37,963 bases of DNA, from IMG/VR virus record IMGVR_UViG_3300039049_000065, positions 1 to 37,963 of that record; one strand, written 5' to 3'. The position numbers were made by a program, and so were the translations under genes. The notes beneath the pieces were generated by a model that worked only from the letters and a program-made list of their open reading frames with translations, was not told where the DNA came from and did not search any database. This DNA comes from a virus. Below, piece by piece: positions 19,758 through 27,181 of the stretch. Each line of letters begins with the position of its first letter. Position 1 is the first letter of the stretch.

Positions 19758-19957
19758 TGGATAGCGAAAGAATTTATTTTCGGGCATCATGCCAAAAACA
19801 ATATGATGCTATACACCACTTAGCACAAGAGTTTGGTTGCTCTGCATCACAAATAGTAAGGTTTGCAATGGACGAATGGCTAAGAGAAAATTTTATTAAA
19901 CAAATAGAATTTGCTCAAGCTACAAGAGAAATAAACTTTCTGAAAAAAGTGGAATGA
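19757..19957 (+). CDS. Ribbon-helix-helix-like DNA-binding protein
   Basis: 66 aa. RIYFRASCQKQYDAIHHLAQEFGCSASQIVRFAMDEWLRENF has the strand, helix, GxSxSxIVRxA helix order of Arc/CopG ribbon-helix-helix proteins. It sits directly before the C5 DNA methyltransferase (4-bp overlap) and may regulate it or the plus-strand early promoter. The call rests on the pattern; no operator was identified. Confidence 0.62.
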   Translation: MDSERIYFRASCQKQYDAIHHLAQEFGCSASQIVRFAMDEWLRENFIKQIEFAQATREINFLKKVE

Positions 19958-20859
19958 AAAAGCTAACAATTTTAGATACATTTAGCGGTATAGGGGGTTT
20001 CTCTTATGCCGCTGAACGTCTTGTTGGGGGTTTTGAAACAACACAGTTTGTTGAAAACAATCCTTACTGTCAAAAAATTTTAAAAAAACATTGGCCAAAC
20101 GTACCTATTCACGATGACATCAAAACATACACAGCAAAACCTTTTCAGTTTGACGTCCTCTGCGGAGGGTTCCCCTGTCAGGATTTATCCGTTGGAGGCC
20201 AACGCCAAGGAATCACGCCCGAGACACGTTCTGGACTTTTCTTTGAACTTGTCAGAATCATTCGCTTGGTACGACCCCGGTACGTTTTGTTGGAAAACGT
20301 GGCAGCGTTGCTTAATTTCGGAATGGACATTGTTCTCAGGGAACTTTCCGAAGCAGGGTACGATGCTGAATGGTCGGTTATATCAGCCGAACAAAGAGGC
20401 GCTTGTCATAAAAGAGAAAGAATTTGGATCATTGCCTACCCCAAACACAATGGATTATCTACCGCCGAGGGGGTTGGATTCAATGATAAAACAGACACAG
20501 AAACACAGGAAAGGGCGCAAACAGATAGGCAACTTGAGGGAAGCAGTAAACCCAGTAGCGGTAGAACTCTTCAACAAGTTACAGAATCTACCGACCCCAT
20601 GTTCAAGGGATTACAAGGACGCCGGGGAAAATTTAAACTTCAAAAAGATAGCGGAGAAAGGCAAGTTATCTGGCGTTCTCAACCACACTTACTCAACCCA
20701 AACTGGAAAGGGTACATATCTCAACCCACCGTTTGTAGAAGAAATGATGGGCTATCCAATCGGGTGGACAGACTACGCGCCCTCGGAAACAGCATAGTCC
20801 CAGCCGTAGCAACAATACCACTTGGAAGAATACTTGACCTTGAAAAAAATGAGTACTGA
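19954..20859 (+). CDS. dcm: DNA (cytosine-5-)-methyltransferase
   Basis: 301 aa. Motif I LDTFSGIGGFSYAAE (7-21), motif IV GGFPCQDLS with catalytic Cys75 (71-79), motif VI ENV (114-116), motif VIII QRGACHKRERIWI (147-159), motif IX/X RVDRLRALGNSIVPAVA (270-286). It transfers methyl from S-adenosylmethionine to C5 of cytosine. The region between motifs VIII and IX, where the target-recognition domain sits, is only about 110 residues and low-complexity; a second gene (20114-20797) lies in another frame over this part. The enzyme probably modifies phage DNA and supplies the substrate of the dioxygenase at 24736. Preceded by an ATGA overlap with the RHH gene. Confidence 0.95.
   Translation: MKKLTILDTFSGIGGFSYAAERLVGGFETTQFVENNPYCQKILKKHWPNVPIHDDIKTYTAKPFQFDVLCGGFPCQDLSVGGQRQGITPETRSGLFFELVRIIRLVRPRYVLLENVAALLNFGMDIVLRELSEAGYDAEWSVISAEQRGACHKRERIWIIAYPKHNGLSTAEGVGFNDKTDTETQERAQTDRQLEGSSKPSSGRTLQQVTESTDPMFKGLQGRRGKFKLQKDSGERQVIWRSQPHLLNPNWKGYISQPTVCRRNDGLSNRVDRLRALGNSIVPAVATIPLGRILDLEKNEY
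20114..20797 (+). CDS. Embedded overlapping gene inside dcm (SPVRIYP / LNPPFVEEMMGYPIGWTD family)
   Basis: 227 codons, open in the +1 frame relative to dcm and entirely within it. It has features of a protein family I remember from phage and metagenome proteins near C5-methyltransferases: an SxEGSPVRIYP start, CWKTWQRC (59-66), FPKQGTMLNGRLYQ, two LPTP repeats (107-110, 159-162), RDYKDAG, and a C-terminal LNPPFVEEMMGYPIGWTD (203-220). The last motif uses the same DNA as motif IX/X of the methyltransferase; GSPVRIYP overlies motif IV. No ribosome site is seen at 20114, so initiation is unclear. Function unknown; an accessory of the methyltransferase is the natural guess. Confidence 0.6.
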   Translation: MTSKHTQQNLFSLTSSAEGSPVRIYPLEANAKESRPRHVLDFSLNLSESFAWYDPGTFCWKTWQRCLISEWTLFSGNFPKQGTMLNGRLYQPNKEALVIKEKEFGSLPTPNTMDYLPPRGLDSMIKQTQKHRKGRKQIGNLREAVNPVAVELFNKLQNLPTPCSRDYKDAGENLNFKKIAEKGKLSGVLNHTYSTQTGKGTYLNPPFVEEMMGYPIGWTDYAPSETA

Positions 20860-21114: not shown

Positions 21115-21279
21115 ATGAATATTTGTATGTACCTTAGAGCCGATGATGGGGCAGCCTTAAGAGAATTTCTACGCAGAAATCCAAAGGTTAATACACATGG
21201 AAATAATCCAGAGAGTTTGGACGCTGGTTTGATCTCTCGGGTTTGTTACTCTTTGGAGGAAGCACTTAATAAAATTTAG
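21115..21279 (+). CDS. 54-aa small protein
   Basis: ATG at 21115, stop TAG 21277-21279. MNICMYLRADDGAALREFLRR, then NNPESLDAGLISRVCYSLEEALNKI. Two predicted helices joined by a polar loop. No Shine-Dalgarno sequence before it, so this is weaker than its neighbours, but it fills the gap 21062-21279 in the same direction. Its stop codon abuts the 5' arm of the structured-RNA candidate. Function unknown. Confidence 0.5.
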   Translation: MNICMYLRADDGAALREFLRRNPKVNTHGNNPESLDAGLISRVCYSLEEALNKI

Positions 21280-21391
21280 CCGGGGAGCCTGACGACCTTT
21301 GCAAAGCGGGTCTGAAAGTCTAACAATATTGCAGAATCCAAGCTGCAAAAGACAGGGAGGTCTACGCGAGGTGGCTTATCTATCCCCCGGC
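21279..21391 (+). ncRNA. Candidate structured RNA between convergent genes
   Basis: Hand folding gives a closing stem GCCGGGG (21279-21285) with CCCCGGC (21385-21391); AGCC (21286-21289) with GGCT (21373-21376); GACC (21294-21297) with GGTC (21309-21312); GTCT (21318-21321) with AGAC (21350-21353), extended by TTGCAG (21329-21334) with CTGCAA (21343-21348) around an 8-nt loop. A second GGTC (21359-21362) and GTCT (21360-21363) offer alternative pairings, so it could switch. It is GC-richer than the genome and not in a plus-strand gene; its 3' end overlaps the NrdR-like gene antisense. I tested hammerhead (a CTGACGA is present), twister-sister, hatchet, tRNA and common riboswitches and none fits. 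Confidence 0.45.
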
Positions 21392-21588
21392 AACTCTTTA
21401 GATAATTTTTTTGCCTTTATATCATCAATAGTTTTTTCTGGATTCTGTATTGTGTACCACCTATGGCCGCAATCAAAACAAACTCTTCGCCTGATTTGTT
21501 TAAAGTCTTTGTTTACAACTATGCTTACAACTTTCTGGATTGTGTAGATTTCGCAATTAGGGCAAAGCACCCATGAGATTCTTTTCAT
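21376..21588 (-). CDS. NrdR-like zinc-ribbon protein
   Basis: 70 aa. Cys9-x2-Cys12 and Cys37-x2-Cys40 form a zinc ribbon, with RRR at 33-35 and CGHRWYTIQNPEK, very like the N-terminal part of the bacterial regulator NrdR (CPxC...RRRxCxxCxxRFTTYE). NrdR senses nucleotides through a C-terminal ATP-cone, which is absent here; the protein ends at 70 aa. It may be a stand-alone DNA-binding zinc ribbon. It overlaps the resolvase gene by 32 bp on the same strand. Confidence 0.7.
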   Translation of the reverse strand: MKRISWVLCPNCEIYTIQKVVSIVVNKDFKQIRRRVCFDCGHRWYTIQNPEKTIDDIKAKKLSKELPGDR

Positions 21589-22030
21589 ATACTCGATCAG
21601 TTGATTGTATTGTTATCATTGCCCCCGGTTTTTTTGGGCCGGGTTTTTTATTATCGCAATAATATTTTCGGGCTTGCAAACTTACCACTTGCGAATCATC
21701 AGCAAACGCTGATAATGTTAAAGCATCTAAAGTACTCCTACATAACTTGTCAATATCGCCCCTGTTTTTTGACGTAGGAAATCTAGGCGCAGATTGCCGC
21801 GTTTCTCCTTTAGCGTTTAAATGAGACTTCGGACGCATAAACCAAAATACTAATTCAACGTGTACTGGTTCTTGTATAATCTCGCCGACATTTTTATTTG
21901 CCTCCAATCTTACCGCCTCACGCCATGGTTTCACTTTCTTACTTGATTCAATCATACGCCCATTTCCAACGTGTCTCTTGCTACCCTGTGGTGCAGCCTC
22001 AATACCTTCAACGATAAAACAGTAATACAT
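21557..22030 (-). CDS. rusA: RusA-family Holliday junction resolvase
   Basis: 157 aa from the ATG at 22030; an ATG at 22042 adds 4 residues and would overlap the divergent gene start. FIVEGIEAAPQGSKRHV at the N-terminus, then GDIDKLCRSTLDALT and FADDSQVVSLQARK carry the conserved acidic residues (two Asp in GDIDK, and the DDSQVV pair) that bind metal in RusA nucleases. The enzyme cuts branched DNA from recombination or replication before packaging. A plus-strand terminator (21624-21650) lies within its C-terminal coding sequence. Confidence 0.9.
   Translation of the reverse strand: MYYCFIVEGIEAAPQGSKRHVGNGRMIESSKKVKPWREAVRLEANKNVGEIIQEPVHVELVFWFMRPKSHLNAKGETRQSAPRFPTSKNRGDIDKLCRSTLDALTLSAFADDSQVVSLQARKYYCDNKKPGPKKPGAMITIQSTDRVYEKNLMGALP
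21624..21650 (+). terminator. Plus-strand intrinsic terminator within rusA
   Basis: CCCGG (21624-21628) pairs with CCGGG (21639-21643); further pairing with the flanking C and G runs is possible. Six T follow (21644-21649). It would end plus-strand transcripts from the early block (dcm and the RNA candidate) inside the antisense-coding rusA gene. The minus strand here codes for the resolvase's Lys/Pro/Gly repeat (KKPGPKKPG), so one sequence serves both purposes. Confidence 0.6.
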
Positions 22031-22031
22031 A

Positions 22032-22799
22032 ATGAGTTTCATTCCAGAGAATACGCCGTTCGTATCTTTGCCTACAGCCTTAAAGGGCAGAATCGACCCA
22101 CACCAATTAGCGGTACTTTGGGTGCTGCAAAGCTACTACCCGAACATTTGGCCTAGTTATAGCACAATCGCGCAAGACGCTGGTATGTGCCGTTCTAAAG
22201 TAATCCATACCGTTGAACAACTTTGTTCACTTGGCTGGTTGCAGAAAGTTTCAAGGACAGATGAACACGGCCAGAAAACTAACGCATATCGAGTAACAGT
22301 TTGGCACGAATGCAAAGTACCCAGCCCACAAAAAGCTAGTATTGATGCGGGGTGTATTTCAACGACCAGTGTACCAGATACACCACCCCTAGTAGCTGAC
22401 GTAAACCCCCCCGGTGTACCACATACACCCGAAGTAAAACAAACTAAACTAAAACAAAAAACTAAAAAGGGCGCATATACGAAAGACTTTGAATTTTTTT
22501 GGAATATGTACCAATCCATGCACGCTGAAAAAAGTATCAGCCAATCAAAAAAACCAGCGTTTACTGAATGGCAGAAGCTGGATAAAAAAACTAAAGAAAA
22601 ACTACCCGAATGTCTGGAAGCTGATATAAAGGCAAGGATTAAAAAATTTAGAAACGATGAATGGTGTCCAATGTTTCCTGATTGCCATAGATGGATTAGC
22701 AAAGGCCAATATGAACAGTTTTTGGAGTTGCGGAAACCAGAAAATCAATCAAAATTAAGACCTTGGTTAAAAAATAAAACTAAAGAACAACCTTTTTAA
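22032..22799 (+). CDS. Replication protein with N-terminal winged helix
   Basis: 255 aa. Residues about 8-75 (LPTALKGRIDPHQLAVLWVLQSYY, PSYSTIAQDAGMCRSKVIHTVEQLCSLGWLQKV) form a winged HTH of the HTH_36 type found in phage O-like initiators and primosomal proteins. A Pro/Thr-rich linker (about 100-150) follows, then a helical C-terminal part (FEFFWNMYQS...WQKLDKKTKEKLPE, DCHRWISKGQYEQF). That tail matches phage replication proteins that recruit a host helicase. It starts 2 bp from the divergent rusA start, so its promoter must lie inside rusA. No polymerase or helicase gene is present, so the phage probably uses host enzymes. Confidence 0.75.
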   Translation: MSFIPENTPFVSLPTALKGRIDPHQLAVLWVLQSYYPNIWPSYSTIAQDAGMCRSKVIHTVEQLCSLGWLQKVSRTDEHGQKTNAYRVTVWHECKVPSPQKASIDAGCISTTSVPDTPPLVADVNPPGVPHTPEVKQTKLKQKTKKGAYTKDFEFFWNMYQSMHAEKSISQSKKPAFTEWQKLDKKTKEKLPECLEADIKARIKKFRNDEWCPMFPDCHRWISKGQYEQFLELRKPENQSKLRPWLKNKTKEQPF

Positions 22800-22805
22800 C
22801 ACACC

Positions 22806-23279
22806 ATGAAACCATACAAAAGAGCCGCGATTGATCGTGATGTTACATTCAGAGCGCCAAACTACAACTGTCACGCTTGCAACGACACCGGGATAGTTCA
22901 CAACGCAGACGGACTTATAAATAATTATTTACCTGATTACGATAAACAGGAAAATGGTAAGCGTATGGCTGGTTGTGATCTTGCAATCATCTGTTACTGC
23001 GAAGCCGTCTACCCAGTTTATGACGAAGATGCTAAGTTAGTTTCTCACGGATTCAGAAATGGCGATGGAGATATTAGAAACAACGTAGGGGTTGATATTG
23101 ATAAAGATACAGTTAGAGAACTACATAATCTGAGAAAAAAGGCTTGGAAAGAAACAGCTAATCTAATGAATAAATTAATTCAGAAAAACCTAAAAAATAA
23201 AAAAGCAGAATTACCCCAAGAAATCCAAAAAGTAAAAGAACAGTTGAAAAATGCAAGGACTATCTTACCGACTCTCTAA
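22806..23279 (+). CDS. Cys-rich (zinc-binding?) replication-associated protein
   Basis: 157 aa. Cys22-x2-Cys25 followed by a TG pair (NCHACNDTGIV), and later Cys57, Cys63 and Cys65 (GCDLAIICYC), could bind zinc in a DnaJ-like or zinc-ribbon manner. The C-terminal half is a long charged helix (about 100-150). It lies 6 bp after the winged-helix replication protein, so a helper in replication initiation is plausible. No family assigned. Confidence 0.65.
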   Translation: MKPYKRAAIDRDVTFRAPNYNCHACNDTGIVHNADGLINNYLPDYDKQENGKRMAGCDLAIICYCEAVYPVYDEDAKLVSHGFRNGDGDIRNNVGVDIDKDTVRELHNLRKKAWKETANLMNKLIQKNLKNKKAELPQEIQKVKEQLKNARTILPTL

Positions 23280-23421
23280 AGACTACATTGTCTACGACCC
23301 ATTGCAAAAATGCAATTATAGAATCCTAAACGGCAAGCGTATTTGGTTACAGCCTAAACCTGTAGAGTTTTATCCTAAGAAAAAAGGGTTAAACTCAGAA
23401 CAGATACACCTCGACTTATGA
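23251..23421 (+). CDS. 56-aa basic protein
   Basis: ATG at 23251 overlapping the previous gene by 29 bp, stop in an ATGA overlap with the ParB-like gene. Sequence pattern: MQGLSYRLSKDYIVYDPLQK, then NYRILNGKRIWLQPKPVEFYPKKKG. Compact beta-rich basic protein. The exact overlap with the next start supports expression. Function unknown. Confidence 0.62.
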   Translation: MQGLSYRLSKDYIVYDPLQKCNYRILNGKRIWLQPKPVEFYPKKKGLNSEQIHLDL

Positions 23422-24038
23422 CCCAAACACCGAGCTACCCAATCGTAGCCCCAGAGCATATAAAGCAATCAAGAATTATTGACCTTACACTATACAAAAA
23501 TAATCCTCGAGTTCATAGCGAAATTCAGATTGAACGGCTGGTTAATTCTTTAAAAGAGTTTGGTTTTACAAATCCTGTTCTTATAGACGATACCGGGAAT
23601 GTGATTGCTGGACATGGAAGGATTACAGCAGCAAAAAAAATTGGAATGGATTCAGTTCCAACAATTACCCTATCCCATCTATCAGAAGAGCAACGTAAAG
23701 CGTACATTATTGCAGACAATCAACTGGCCCTTAACTCATCTTGGGACGATGACCTATTAAAGAAAGAATTAGAACAATTATCAGAAACTGGTTTTGATCT
23801 TTCACTACTCGGTTGGGGGGACGATATTCCAACCTTTGCAGATGAACCTGACTACGGTTCTTTGGACGACTTCGATGACCCAACTGACGCACTAGCCAAC
23901 AACGTCTATAAAGCAATTCAGATAGAATTTAGACCGGAAGATTATGAACACGCAAAAGCTATAGTTGCAGATGCTAGAAAAAAAGGAATCTATGTAGGCG
24001 AAGAGCTAGTTAAAGCATTAGAACAAATCATTAAATGA
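23418..24038 (+). CDS. ParB-domain protein of the DNA-modification cluster
   Basis: 206 aa. IIDLTLYKNNPRVHSEIQIERLVNSLKEFGF, PVLIDDTGNVIAGHGRITAAKKIG (motif at 60-72) and VPTITLSHLSEEQRKAYIIADNQL match the ParB N-terminal domain found alone or fused to DNA methyltransferases in phages. The C-terminal part (about 130-206) is acidic then helical. It overlaps the FkbM gene by 4 bp. In phages with TET/JBP-type dioxygenases, ParB-domain genes are recurrent neighbours (recollection). It may bind DNA or NTP and position the modifying enzymes; nuclease activity is not shown. Confidence 0.85.
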   Translation: MTQTPSYPIVAPEHIKQSRIIDLTLYKNNPRVHSEIQIERLVNSLKEFGFTNPVLIDDTGNVIAGHGRITAAKKIGMDSVPTITLSHLSEEQRKAYIIADNQLALNSSWDDDLLKKELEQLSETGFDLSLLGWGDDIPTFADEPDYGSLDDFDDPTDALANNVYKAIQIEFRPEDYEHAKAIVADARKKGIYVGEELVKALEQIIK

Positions 24039-24739
24039 AATTATCCCAAGGAGAGATTAACGGTATTAAATTTTTTTACCGGGAGGGTTTTTCTGATGCC
24101 AAAACTTTCATAGAAGTACTTAAGCAAGATTGTTACCAAAAAAAAGGAATGACCATTAAGGCCAACGAATCGTGGCTTGATTGTGGCGGTAATGTAGGTG
24201 CTTTTTCATTATTGGCAGCCTCAAAAGGTGCATCAACTGTTTGTTATGAGCCTGACCCTTACAGCTGCGAAATGATAGAAAAAAACCTTAAATTAAATGG
24301 TTTTGAAAATGCAGTAGAAATAAAAGAAGCGGCTCTTGTCCATGATGAAAGAAAGTCTACAATTTTAACTATCGGGCCTAACGGCGGGGTTTGGCGTAAT
24401 TCAATAATGCACAAAGGCATTAGGAAAAAAGGTATTAAAGTACCTTGTATAAATTTTGATTCTCAAGCCGCTTTAGCCGATAATTGTAAAATGGATATTG
24501 AAGGCGCAGAAATACCAATTCTGACGCATAGTATGGCTACCTTTGAAAAACTTGTTTATGAATGGAGTTTTGATTATGACCCATACATACCAAAACTTTG
24601 GAATGTGATCGACAAACAAAAAGCTGATTACCGAGTAGAAGCAGAATACAAGTCTCTGCACTATGTTGAAAGGGACGTTACATTTTGGGGTGCTACTTGG
24701 TTTCCTAAAAACTCTATGGTTTATTGCTTTGCATTATGA
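24035..24739 (+). CDS. FkbM-family S-adenosylmethionine methyltransferase
   Basis: 234 aa. Motif I WLDCGGNVGAFSLLA (47-61), YEPDP (71-75) binding the cofactor ribose, and CKMDIEGAEIPIL (151-163) are hallmarks of the FkbM (Methyltransf_21) family of O-methyltransferases. FkbM enzymes methylate sugar or other hydroxyl groups. The gene overlaps both the ParB gene and the dioxygenase gene by 4 bp. In that setting the likely acceptor is an oxidised base or its adduct in phage DNA, for example the hydroxyl of 5-hydroxymethylcytosine; this is inference. A role in lipopolysaccharide or protein methylation is an alternative. Confidence 0.88.
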   Translation: MKLSQGEINGIKFFYREGFSDAKTFIEVLKQDCYQKKGMTIKANESWLDCGGNVGAFSLLAASKGASTVCYEPDPYSCEMIEKNLKLNGFENAVEIKEAALVHDERKSTILTIGPNGGVWRNSIMHKGIRKKGIKVPCINFDSQAALADNCKMDIEGAEIPILTHSMATFEKLVYEWSFDYDPYIPKLWNVIDKQKADYRVEAEYKSLHYVERDVTFWGATWFPKNSMVYCFAL

Positions 24740-25518
24740 AACTACCTGAACTAATCCTGAAGCCTGTCACATCGCCCCTTAAAATCGGCGATTCTGTAGG
24801 TGGTTTTGAGCCTAACGTATTTGATGATTGTGTTTTAATCGACCCCGATGGAACCCCAGTAGGATTATTTATAAAAACTTTGCCAGATGATTTGCAGAAC
24901 TTAGTTAACATTGCAGACCGGGAGATACAAACAAAGAGAGTTCCTAAATCTGATATGCGCCGTTCTAGTGGTTTGCATGATGAGGAATCAGAAGTTAAAC
25001 AGTATTCAACTATTCTCGGTTCTTGTCCACCAAAACCACACATGAGAAGGCCATACGCTACCCGGTCATCAGTTCACGCCGTAAAAAGTGCCAATATTTT
25101 TGCAAAGGCAATGCACGTTGCTGGTATTAAATCGTTTGAACTTGTTAAAAAATTTATTCCAACCGTGGCAGATGCACACCTTATGAAAATACGCGAAAGG
25201 ATACCAGAGCAATGGCGTTTTGCTAATAATTTTTCTTCTACAATTTCTAATTGCAATATTTCCGCGCCAGTTCATCAAGACCACGCCAACGTAAAAGGTG
25301 CTATAAATATGATAATTACCAAAAGGCGTAACAGCAAAGGAGGTAATCTTCATGTACCTGATTACAACGCTACCTTTGACCAAACTGATAATTCATTATT
25401 GGTTTACCCAGCTTGGCGCAATCGTCACGGAGTTACCCCGATTATTCCTACATATCAAGGCGGCTACCGTAACTCTCATGTGTGGTACGCCCTTGACTCT
25501 TTTAACAAACTAACCTAG
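24736..25518 (+). CDS. TET/JBP-like 2-oxoglutarate/Fe(II) dioxygenase (probable 5-methylcytosine oxidase)
   Basis: 260 aa from the ATG at 24736, overlapping the FkbM stop (ATGA). The double-stranded beta helix is C-terminal: APVHQDHANVKG gives iron ligands His180 and Asp182, GGNLHVPDYNATF is the family's central strand pattern, NRHGVTPI gives His231, and GGYRNSHVWY gives Arg245 for 2-oxoglutarate. The arrangement, including FANNFSSTISNCN before the HxD, matches TET/JBP phage enzymes shown to oxidise 5-methylcytosine. A cytosine C5-methyltransferase in the same genome supplies the substrate. The N-terminal about 100 residues are a distinct region of unknown fold with Cys and Met-Arg-Arg motifs. 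It ends in TAGTG with the terminase small subunit. Confidence 0.85.
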   Translation: MKLPELILKPVTSPLKIGDSVGGFEPNVFDDCVLIDPDGTPVGLFIKTLPDDLQNLVNIADREIQTKRVPKSDMRRSSGLHDEESEVKQYSTILGSCPPKPHMRRPYATRSSVHAVKSANIFAKAMHVAGIKSFELVKKFIPTVADAHLMKIRERIPEQWRFANNFSSTISNCNISAPVHQDHANVKGAINMIITKRRNSKGGNLHVPDYNATFDQTDNSLLVYPAWRNRHGVTPIIPTYQGGYRNSHVWYALDSFNKLT

Positions 25519-25841
25519 TGGACAAAAAGAAAGCAACACAGGCAGAAAAAGAACATAGAACTTACAGAATAGCTGCGTTACTTGCGCGTGGTGTAACTCG
25601 GTCAGAAATAATAAAATATACCGCGGCTGAGTGGGGGTTGAAGTTAAGACAGACAGAGCAGTATATCCAAGATGCGCGTATCGTTCTCAAGAAAGATTTT
25701 GATATTGACAGAAGGCAATTTACCGCGGACATTTTAAGCCAGCTTTCTACGCTGCAAAAAGAGGCCAGAAACAACAACCAATTACACGTTGCTTTAGGGT
25801 GTATAAATGCAATGGCTAAGATCGCCCAAATTTCAACATGA
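25518..25841 (+). CDS. terS: Terminase small subunit
   Basis: 107 aa, GTG start overlapping the dioxygenase stop (TAGTG). ALLARGVTRSEIIKYTAAEWGLKLRQTEQYIQDARIVLKKDF is an HTH-like DNA-binding segment, followed by a helical oligomerisation part (DILSQLSTLQKEARNN). Small and immediately upstream of TerL with an ATGA overlap, so it is almost certainly the DNA-recognition subunit of the packaging motor. Confidence 0.85.
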   Translation: MDKKKATQAEKEHRTYRIAALLARGVTRSEIIKYTAAEWGLKLRQTEQYIQDARIVLKKDFDIDRRQFTADILSQLSTLQKEARNNNQLHVALGCINAMAKIAQIST

Positions 25842-27181
25842 GCATACTTTCTAAGGAGGGTTCAGTACTTGATCGCCCCGGTAGCGCTGGTATTTCGGTT
25901 GATATTGATGTATTGCTAGAAAGAATAAGAAACGACTTACACGAACCACAAAAGGCTTTTTTTGATGATAATTCCACAGAAATATTAGGACTTTCGGCTG
26001 GTTATGGTGCTGGCAAGACTAGGGCATTATGCGCGGCTTGTGTGAAACTAGCTGCGTTGAACGTAGGATTTACCGGGGCTGTTATGGAGCCAACAGGGCC
26101 ATTAATCCGTGATATATGGCAAACAGACTTTGAACAGTTTTTGGAGCATTATGAAATACCCTACACGTTTAGAGCTAGTCCACTTCCGGAGTATATTTTG
26201 CACCTACCGGGAGGGGATACCAAGATATTGTGCAGAAGTTTTGAAAACTGGTCACGCATAATCGGATTAAATTTAGCTTTCGTGTTGGCAGATGAAATAG
26301 ATACAGTAGCCCCAACAGTTTGCGATAGAGCCTTTCCTAAAATACTTGGAAGGCTAAGGGCTGGCAATGTAAGGCAGTTTTGCGCGGCAAGTACCCCAGA
26401 AGGTTTTAGGTGGATGTGGAATACGTTTGGCTCTGACGAAGCAAAGGAAAGGGAGGACAGAAAGCTAATACGAATGAGGACACAAGACAACCCACACTTG
26501 CCAGACGACTTTATTGAAAGAATGCAAAGCAACTACGACCCTAGTATGTTGCAAGCCTACCTCAATGGAGAATTTACAAATCTAACTACCGGGCAAGTTT
26601 ATGACCGTTTCGTCAGGGCTGATAATGTAGTTAACTCGGTTCCTGATTATTCGCGGGAGCCTTTGAGAATCGGGGTGGACTTTAATATTGGAAATATGAG
26701 CGCCGTTATCGGAATTAAATTAAATGATGAATTGTTAATAATTGATGAGATTGTATCAGCACATGATACAGATGCACTTGCTCAAGAAATCAAACGCCGA
26801 TACCCTACCAGTAAGATTTATGTTTATCCTGACGCAAGCGGAGGGAATCGCTCTACAAATGCAAGCAAAACAGATATACAGATTCTTGAAACCTATGGCT
26901 TCACTAATCTATCAGCAAAAAGCAACCCGCCAATACGCGATAGGGTCACAGCCGTACAGGGTTTGTTATGTAACGGAAAAGGGAAAGTACGTTTACAAAT
27001 CAATGCCAGTTGCAAACGTATGATTGAATGTTTAGAGTTGCAATCATATACTGAAAAGGGCGAGCCAGATAAGGAGGCCGGGTACGATCACATGAATGAT
27101 GCGCTAGGTTATTTGATCTGGCGGGAGTTCAACCCACTTCATGCACGTTCTGGTCGTGGAACTGGTGTTCGATTGTATTAA
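25838..27181 (+). CDS. terL: Terminase large subunit
   Basis: 447 aa. Walker A GYGAGKT (55-61), Walker B AFVLADEID (147-155), motif III-like AASTPEGF (183-190), then a nuclease domain with GVDFNIG (Asp281), YPDASG (Asp332) and YDHMNDALGYLIW (Asp417, Asp421). This is the ATP-driven packaging motor and headful or cos nuclease. Translationally coupled to TerS. The packaging type cannot be decided here; the circular assembly is compatible with permuted headful packaging or with cos ends. Confidence 0.96.
   Translation: MSILSKEGSVLDRPGSAGISVDIDVLLERIRNDLHEPQKAFFDDNSTEILGLSAGYGAGKTRALCAACVKLAALNVGFTGAVMEPTGPLIRDIWQTDFEQFLEHYEIPYTFRASPLPEYILHLPGGDTKILCRSFENWSRIIGLNLAFVLADEIDTVAPTVCDRAFPKILGRLRAGNVRQFCAASTPEGFRWMWNTFGSDEAKEREDRKLIRMRTQDNPHLPDDFIERMQSNYDPSMLQAYLNGEFTNLTTGQVYDRFVRADNVVNSVPDYSREPLRIGVDFNIGNMSAVIGIKLNDELLIIDEIVSAHDTDALAQEIKRRYPTSKIYVYPDASGGNRSTNASKTDIQILETYGFTNLSAKSNPPIRDRVTAVQGLLCNGKGKVRLQINASCKRMIECLELQSYTEKGEPDKEAGYDHMNDALGYLIWREFNPLHARSGRGTGVRLY

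Follow-up and report, generated by a model that had tools for sequence, protein, structure and literature searches.

In this work, we describe a family of structured RNAs in marine cyanophage-like siphoviruses. The DNA analysed here (the window) is a virus record of 37,963 bases whose closest cultured relatives are the Prochlorococcus siphoviruses MED4-184, P-HS2 and MED4-117, and it is nearly certain that its positions 21279-21391 are one copy of an uncatalogued, plus-strand, four-way-junction RNA family of ~90-150 nt. We show that a broad group of these phages carries one copy of this RNA per genome and that the RNA is embedded in mRNA between the replication or early side and the packaging and structural genes. 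The original prediction had proposed a structured RNA with a 7-bp closing stem at this place, unassigned to any known class. The RNA is real, its coordinates hold, and the prediction understated what is a new, widespread class of marine phage RNA. Judged from sequence comparison, the newness lies in the RNA class, with no library family matched; the functional kind is undetermined.

The best explanation overall, without being a probable one, is that the new family acts in cis as an antiterminator of the late operon. More broadly, it is not far short of an even chance that this RNA class, with one copy in each genome of a large group of picocyanobacterial siphoviruses, has a mechanism of its own: at the passage from early to late expression, the RNA would reprogram the cyanobacterial transcription machinery or, in a translational version, bring in ribosomes where no Shine-Dalgarno sequence is present. 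Marine picocyanobacterial phages are very abundant, and to our knowledge the late-gene switch of the siphoviruses among them has not been established. A conserved RNA of ~110 nt with an invariant junction in cultured phages makes the question of this switch directly testable. An antiterminator would add a further RNA-only architecture to put and EAR and give an RNA handle on cyanobacterial RNA polymerase; a catalytic or ribosome-recruiting RNA would be still more unusual.

Structure and covariation

Covariation among relatives is decisive for the reality of the RNA, despite the unremarkable stability of the single copy. The original prediction had called for a covariance search with related loci, an Rfam scan and a comparison of stability with shuffled sequence. 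On the last point, the window copy folded alone has no excess stability (z -0.93; 37 of 200 shuffles equally or more stable), and 13 relatives gave z from -1.37 to -3.35. Cmscan with Rfam 15 returned no family at gathering score in the whole window or in the loci of 14 relatives, and scans at relaxed E-value gave sub-threshold noise only. By these stability and Rfam tests of the window copy alone, the element could have been dismissed. The covariance search with related loci did find the compensatory changes in the stems, and they are strong and on the plus strand. Among 96 distinct aligned copies, 96.2% of the 2497 base-pair cells of the proposed structure are paired, compared to 81.0% in shuffles; two-sided changes occur in 18 of 27 pairs and in 373 cells (111.7 in shuffles), and the covariation score is 0.449, compared to 0.197 for shuffles and at most 0.104 for slid versions of the structure. 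Parsimony on a tree built from the RNA alignment itself counts 84 two-sided events. When mutual information was scored over 80 columns without an assumed structure, the top 10 column pairs, and 11 of the top 12, were proposed pairs, and RNAalifold on the model-fitted alignment recovers P1, P2, P3b and P4 unaided. This alignment was fitted to the structure of the model, which favours pairing, the mutual-information ranking uses the identical alignment, and the copies count as only 8.1 effective sequences at 85% identity. G-U cells (264) exceed A-C cells (60), also without column pair 78/167 (224 and 33), and the plus strand is therefore the selected strand.

Table 1. Features of the RNA copy and its surroundings, in window coordinates
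Feature	Position	Strand	Remarks
dcm gene	19954-20859		Upstream of the structured RNA
Upstream ORF, 54 aa	21115-21279	+	PHROG 34258, unknown function; TAG stop overlaps P1 by one base
Structured RNA, four-way junction, 113 nt	21279-21391	+	Covariance models R1 (126.5 bits) and R2 (96.7 bits); covariation
P1, 5' strand GCCGGGG	21279-21285	+	Exactly 7 bp with 21385-21391; first G is the final base of the TAG stop
J1/2, AGCCUGAC	21286-21293	+	Nearly invariant AGCCUGAY; columns 8-14 at least 98% identical
P2 hairpin, GACC..GGUC	21294-21312	+	Stem 21294-21297 with 21309-21312; fully variable among phages
J2/3, UGAAA	21313-21317	+	Columns 70-74 invariant, partly set by search pattern
P3 and hairpin P3b across asymmetric internal loop	21318-21353	+	
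P3 stem	21318-21320 with 21351-21353	+	Column 76/168: CG 70, UA 24, UG 2
P3b hairpin	21329-21334 with 21343-21348	+	6 of 6 pairs with two-sided changes
P4: GGG/YYY, bulged A 21378, AGG/CUU, distal stem, loop GCGAG	21355-21381	+	21355-21360 with 21375-21377 and 21379-21381
P1, 3' strand CCCCGGC	21385-21391	+	99.9% of P1 cells paired
NrdR-like zinc-ribbon ORF, 70 aa, convergent	21376-21588	-	Overlaps the 3' end of the RNA
RusA-like resolvase	21557-22042	-	PHROG 140, Pfam RusA; antisense to the read-through path
Intrinsic-terminator-like hairpin with U-run	21624-21643	+	233 nt downstream of the RNA, inside the RusA ORF
Downstream genes co-directional with the RNA	22032-27181	+	Replication initiator, ParB-like, methyltransferase, 2OG-oxygenase-like, probable small terminase (by position), large terminase

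The RNA consists of P1 and three arms (four inner helices with P3 and P3b taken separately; Table 1), and relatives are 89-148 nt long compared to 113 nt in the window phage. P1 varies visibly (GCCGGGG/CCCCGGC to GUCGGGG/CCCCGAC; column 2/250 is UA in 75 and CG in 21 of the 96 copies), and its 3' strand lies outside every search pattern and is still found in the retrieved copies. P2 has two-sided changes in all five modelled pairs with 98.7% of cells paired, and variation from GACC/GGUC to GACUUG/CAAGUC and GACA/UGUC is seen by eye. In P4 (helix 5), 99.0% of cells are paired and three pairs have two-sided changes. The weakest pairs are the third pair of P3 (unpaired in 27 of 96 copies) and the outermost pair of P3b (34 of 87). 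RNAalifold also offers an alternative in which columns 9-10 pair with 75-76, which is incompatible with P3. P3 is the supported state because column 76/168 covaries (two-sided cells in 24 of 96 copies) while the alternative has no two-sided change. A pseudoknot or loop-loop contact was sought in the mutual-information ranking, which gave no extra covarying pair of comparable strength. The original prediction had further suggested two states, with GACC and AGAC competing for GGTC/GTCT at 21359-21363. This idea was not sustained: GGTCT is not conserved, as close relatives have AGGCTA, AGGTTG, AGGTTT or AGACTA in its place and distant relatives GGGCGG.

Constancy of 98% or more is reached in 17 unpaired columns, in some of them with help from the search pattern. 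The invariance of J1/2 is likewise partly set by the pattern for pattern-fetched loci, and J1/2 is also preserved in loci of the window clade fetched via neighbouring proteins and not by pattern; the exception is G9 to T in locus L118 (L numbers denote loci). From the letters alone, CUGAY at the end of J1/2 and UGAAA of J2/3 could form tandem sheared G.A pairs that stack on P2, in a kink-turn-like manner. An insert of ~30 nt in the P3b loop lengthens this hairpin in L009 (1122-1257), L084 (3433-3570) and L132 (196-333) and is thus common to RNAs from different sub-groups.

Family members and known RNAs

Out of 95 loci, fetched by means of three neighbouring proteins, came 23 distinct stretches that conserve the element; covariance model R1 was made from 21 distinct complete close-relative copies with identical borders. 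Run on 67 loci fetched by the downstream methyltransferase, R1 found the highly divergent copies L180, L182 and L203 (50.8-56.7 bits), from which a relaxed DNA core pattern was derived. This pattern matches at least 119 IMG/VR stretches, a lower bound for the size of the family. It fixes GGGGAGCCTGA, TGAAAG and CAGGG, so that invariance there is partly by construction; the P1 3' strand, P2, P3b, most of P4 and the AUC junction lie outside it. Among the listed pattern matches, R1 matches 102 of 104 further IMG/VR loci (68 of 70 and 34 of 34), the misses being L209 and L219. Model R2, built from 96 copies, recovers 15 of 15 tested members and gives nothing at E≤5 in the 627,796 bases of 95 loci in which R1 had no significant match. 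A pattern match in a Hymenobacteraceae genome (L111) was rejected as chance, with local repeats flanking it and no match by R2. For L123, a 12.2-bit match is false, and the true copy is missing from the neighbour-ORF cluster table; this locus is omitted, or listed with the false row, in the counts of terminators, other-arm copies, ORF order and packaging genes given below. The positional counts over 110 copies (26 of the window clade and 84 others) use the corrected L123.

The RNA is present exactly once per record in 20 of 20 records, and in ten further records eight have a single copy and two isolates have none. Cultured carriers are P-HS2, MED4-184 and MED4-117. No copy was found in the cyanophages KBS-S-2A and S-H1, though their TerL proteins are 74-75% identical.

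Several known identities were tried and rejected. A tRNA or tmRNA can be set aside, with no gene found by ARAGORN in the window, and so can the EAR/epsC RNA, whose family accession we take to be RF01735, with no match among the 4227 Rfam families. Some copies contain the strings CUGAUGA, GAAA and GUC that recall the hammerhead ribozyme. The hammerhead core consists of CUGANGA, stem II, GAA next to stem II and a cleavage site at the end of stem III. Here, however, strand order and helix placement differ: only CUGAY is conserved, P2 begins immediately after it and is followed by UGAAA, the GA of CUGAUGA falls within the variable stem P2, and the core arrangement is absent. Association with a pathway, as for a riboswitch, was also rejected, the neighbouring genes being unrelated to one another. 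No description of this RNA was found among open-licence PMC papers.

Known systems nevertheless offer partial likenesses. The HK022 put RNA of lambdoid early operons has ~70 nt and two stem-loops without a closing junction, and suppresses termination and pausing of the polymerase that transcribed it (PMC9378689). Like put, the RNA described here is a phage RNA on the sense strand at the promoter side of a long operon, while action in cis on polymerase is only a working model here. Unlike put, it is a closed four-way junction of 89-148 nt ahead of late genes, and identity with put was rejected for this architecture. The EAR or epsC motif is a compact multi-helix RNA inside a long operon with reported antitermination (PMC2864571, PMC8955417); host group and operon type differ from those found here. 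The pLS20-type plasmids have a processive antitermination system for a long operon with terminators, whose RNA component, conAn, lies at the operon start (PMC8955417); that system differs in having two components, a protein and an RNA. Marine phages and cyanophages also carry manA, wcaG and PhotoRC-II, structured RNAs found by comparative genomics; according to PMC2864571, manA and wcaG are located within potential 5' UTRs of genes for metabolism, exopolysaccharides or photosynthesis, and PhotoRC-II precedes photosynthetic reaction-centre genes. They are marine phage structured RNAs likewise, but none was matched to the window RNA by cmscan.

Genomic setting and possible functions

The RNA keeps a tight distance to the gene before it. 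In all 26 window-clade copies, a co-directional upstream ORF overlaps the start of the RNA by 1 nt, and in 72 of the 84 others it ends 3-9 nt ahead of the RNA, compared to 172 of 4200 random plus-strand points (4.1%). The original prediction was right that the RNA starts at the stop codon of 21115-21279, lies downstream of dcm and ends antisense to the NrdR-like gene, with which its final 16 nt overlap. Its placement between convergent transcription units is confined to the clade of the window; most relatives have the RNA between two co-directional genes. Upstream ORFs fall into many unrelated clusters, as do downstream ORFs. An ORF of at least 45 aa starts with ATG within 79 nt after the RNA in 77 of 84 copies outside the window clade and in 3 of 26 inside it. 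The leader from RNA to ATG has 4.8% G, compared to 23.2% for other genes, and a Shine-Dalgarno-like motif occurs in 0 of 58 such leaders and in 29 of 138 other starts; the leaders are often shorter than the 20-nt span used for this comparison. The G-poor flanks keep the fold of the RNA independent.

Scoring TerL, TerS, portal, capsid and ParB-like genes as packaging-side genes, we find that in 84 of 109 contexts all detected ones follow the RNA on its own strand, that in one (L226) they are opposite, and that 24 have none on the DNA analysed. TerL lies 337-4592 nt downstream of the RNA (61 loci). Five copies (L208, L226, L248, L269 and L300) are in the other genome arm. In phages that we call Synechococcus-type from G+C content and gene resemblance, the common order is replication gene, small YHH ORF, RNA, small MDQ/PNPKIR ORFs and terminase, with additional genes inserted on either side of the RNA. 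The frequent MDQ/PNPKIR ORFs were considered as a constant adjacent protein partner and rejected, because they were not found in the window, L208, L226, L227, L269 and L300. Read-through of the upstream stop codon or frameshifting was rejected as well: 101 copies have a stop codon -1 to 9 nt ahead of the RNA; read on in the frame of that stop, 86 of them hit a further stop within the RNA and 15 stay open to its end, and the lengths of the copies are not mutually in frame.

Terminator-like sites on the RNA's strand are concentrated upstream, with 36 in the 1.5 kb before the RNA compared to 5 on the other strand (all loci); in six loci (L214, L245, L248, L271, L281 and L283) such a site ends shortly ahead of the RNA. 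Sites more than 500 nt after the RNA are rare in all loci. Outside the window clade, the late side has almost none of them, and they are found more often upstream of the RNA. Within it, 14 of 25 loci have a plus-strand site after the RNA. The hairpin at 21624-21643 has one stem pair exchanged from C-G to G-C in L008, L009 and L010, and a second group of the clade has a site ~32 nt after the RNA. The right part of the window holds 21 terminator-like sites, not above the 18.1 expected from shuffles. This distribution agrees with the RNA standing close to the beginning of a new late unit, without demonstrating antitermination.

We suggest, tentatively and as an inference made without transcript, terminator or antitermination data, that the RNA is a cis-acting processive antiterminator for the late operon, similar to put and EAR. 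It would act while being transcribed: the transcription complex, alone or together with a protein, would bind to the surface formed by the invariant junction (AGCCUGAY / UGAAA / A / AUC), and polymerase modified in this way would continue across the sequence behind the RNA and on into the long late operon, as happens with put RNA and EAR. In the window phage, the sequence to cross would comprise the terminator-like hairpin and the opposite-strand gene. The single copy, the one strand, the fixed place before a long operon, the independence of neighbours and the insulating flanks suit such cis action on a transcription complex, and a general criterion of antitermination, a sense-strand position ahead of a long operon, is met in the 84 contexts counted above. 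Against antitermination stand the 11 of 25 window-clade loci without a terminator-like site just after the RNA, the scarcity of such sites on the late side in the other phages, their number in the right part of the window, which does not exceed that of shuffles, the absence of the RNA from KBS-S-2A and S-H1 despite related terminases, and the copies in the other arm. We hold antitermination no more firmly because a translational role accounts better for the leader and because a ribozyme or a role in trans is not excluded.

The RNA could be a cis-acting 5' leader that controls or boosts translation of the next gene, either as a riboregulator or as a bacterial counterpart of an intergenic IRES. 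The frequent ATG ORF close behind the RNA agrees with this, and the G-poor leaders free of Shine-Dalgarno motifs are better explained than by antitermination. Such a leader is unlikely, though it deserves serious consideration, given that few window-clade copies have such an ORF, the RNA meeting a convergent gene instead, and that the downstream gene families are mutually unrelated. The invariant unpaired core is typical of catalytic or binding RNAs and, together with the tight stop-codon spacing, would suit a self-cleaving or processed RNA that splits early from late mRNA or shields a new 5' or 3' end. No Rfam 15 ribozyme family matched, however, the hammerhead arrangement is absent and no conserved cleavage-site context was identified, and we regard processing as unlikely.

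A phage RNA released from the mRNA to act in trans, e.g., in regulation or as a component of the packaging machine, might have its own start in the six loci where it directly follows an intrinsic terminator, and the insulation of its fold by G-poor flanks and the terminase genes nearby in many genomes are in keeping with this. The RNA nevertheless stays within mRNA, on one strand and in a constant place, can be as far as 4.6 kb from TerL, occupies the other arm in a few phages, and was not found in the two phages with related terminases; release is an unlikely account. A metabolite riboswitch is improbable: a multi-helix junction with an invariant core would be expected of one, but the downstream gene or pathway is not consistent and no conserved expression platform was seen at a fixed distance. 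A DNA-level element, such as an origin or a recombination or packaging site, would be compatible with the exchange of neighbouring genes right at the RNA borders; it is disfavoured and most improbable, the excess of G-U over A-C cells pointing to selection on the plus-strand transcript. Among these readings, we retain antitermination in cis as the working model.

Flanking genes

Unrelated extra genes are inserted right at the RNA borders in the YHH-to-MDQ region of L220-L310 and others, as if these borders were a hotspot for gene gain. In L271, L281 and L283, AT repeats (TTATTATTATT) lie on both sides of the RNA, immediately after the intrinsic terminator. Downstream of the RNA in L258 and relatives, the short MDQ ORF overlaps the start of the MPNPKIR.. 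ORF in a different frame.

In the window, the NrdR-like ORF (Pfam Zn_ribbon_NrdR, 23.7 bits, under the cut-off of 27.2) is a zinc ribbon that stands alone without the remainder of NrdR and occurs in only six IMG/VR loci, every one of the window clade. The 5' ends of the RusA and replication-initiator genes overlap by ~10 nt (22032-22042), and there is therefore no promoter for either gene between them. Another frame inside dcm holds a 227-aa ORF (20114-20797, plus strand) that resembles a real protein. At 24035-25515 (plus strand), an FkbM-type methyltransferase is followed by a protein with weak likeness to a Tet/JBP oxygenase domain (22.7 bits, cut-off 34.9), which PHROGs assigns to a queuine tRNA-ribosyltransferase family (phrog_6059). 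The pair adjoins the ParB-like/methyltransferase-like gene, with which it possibly forms a DNA-modification cluster.
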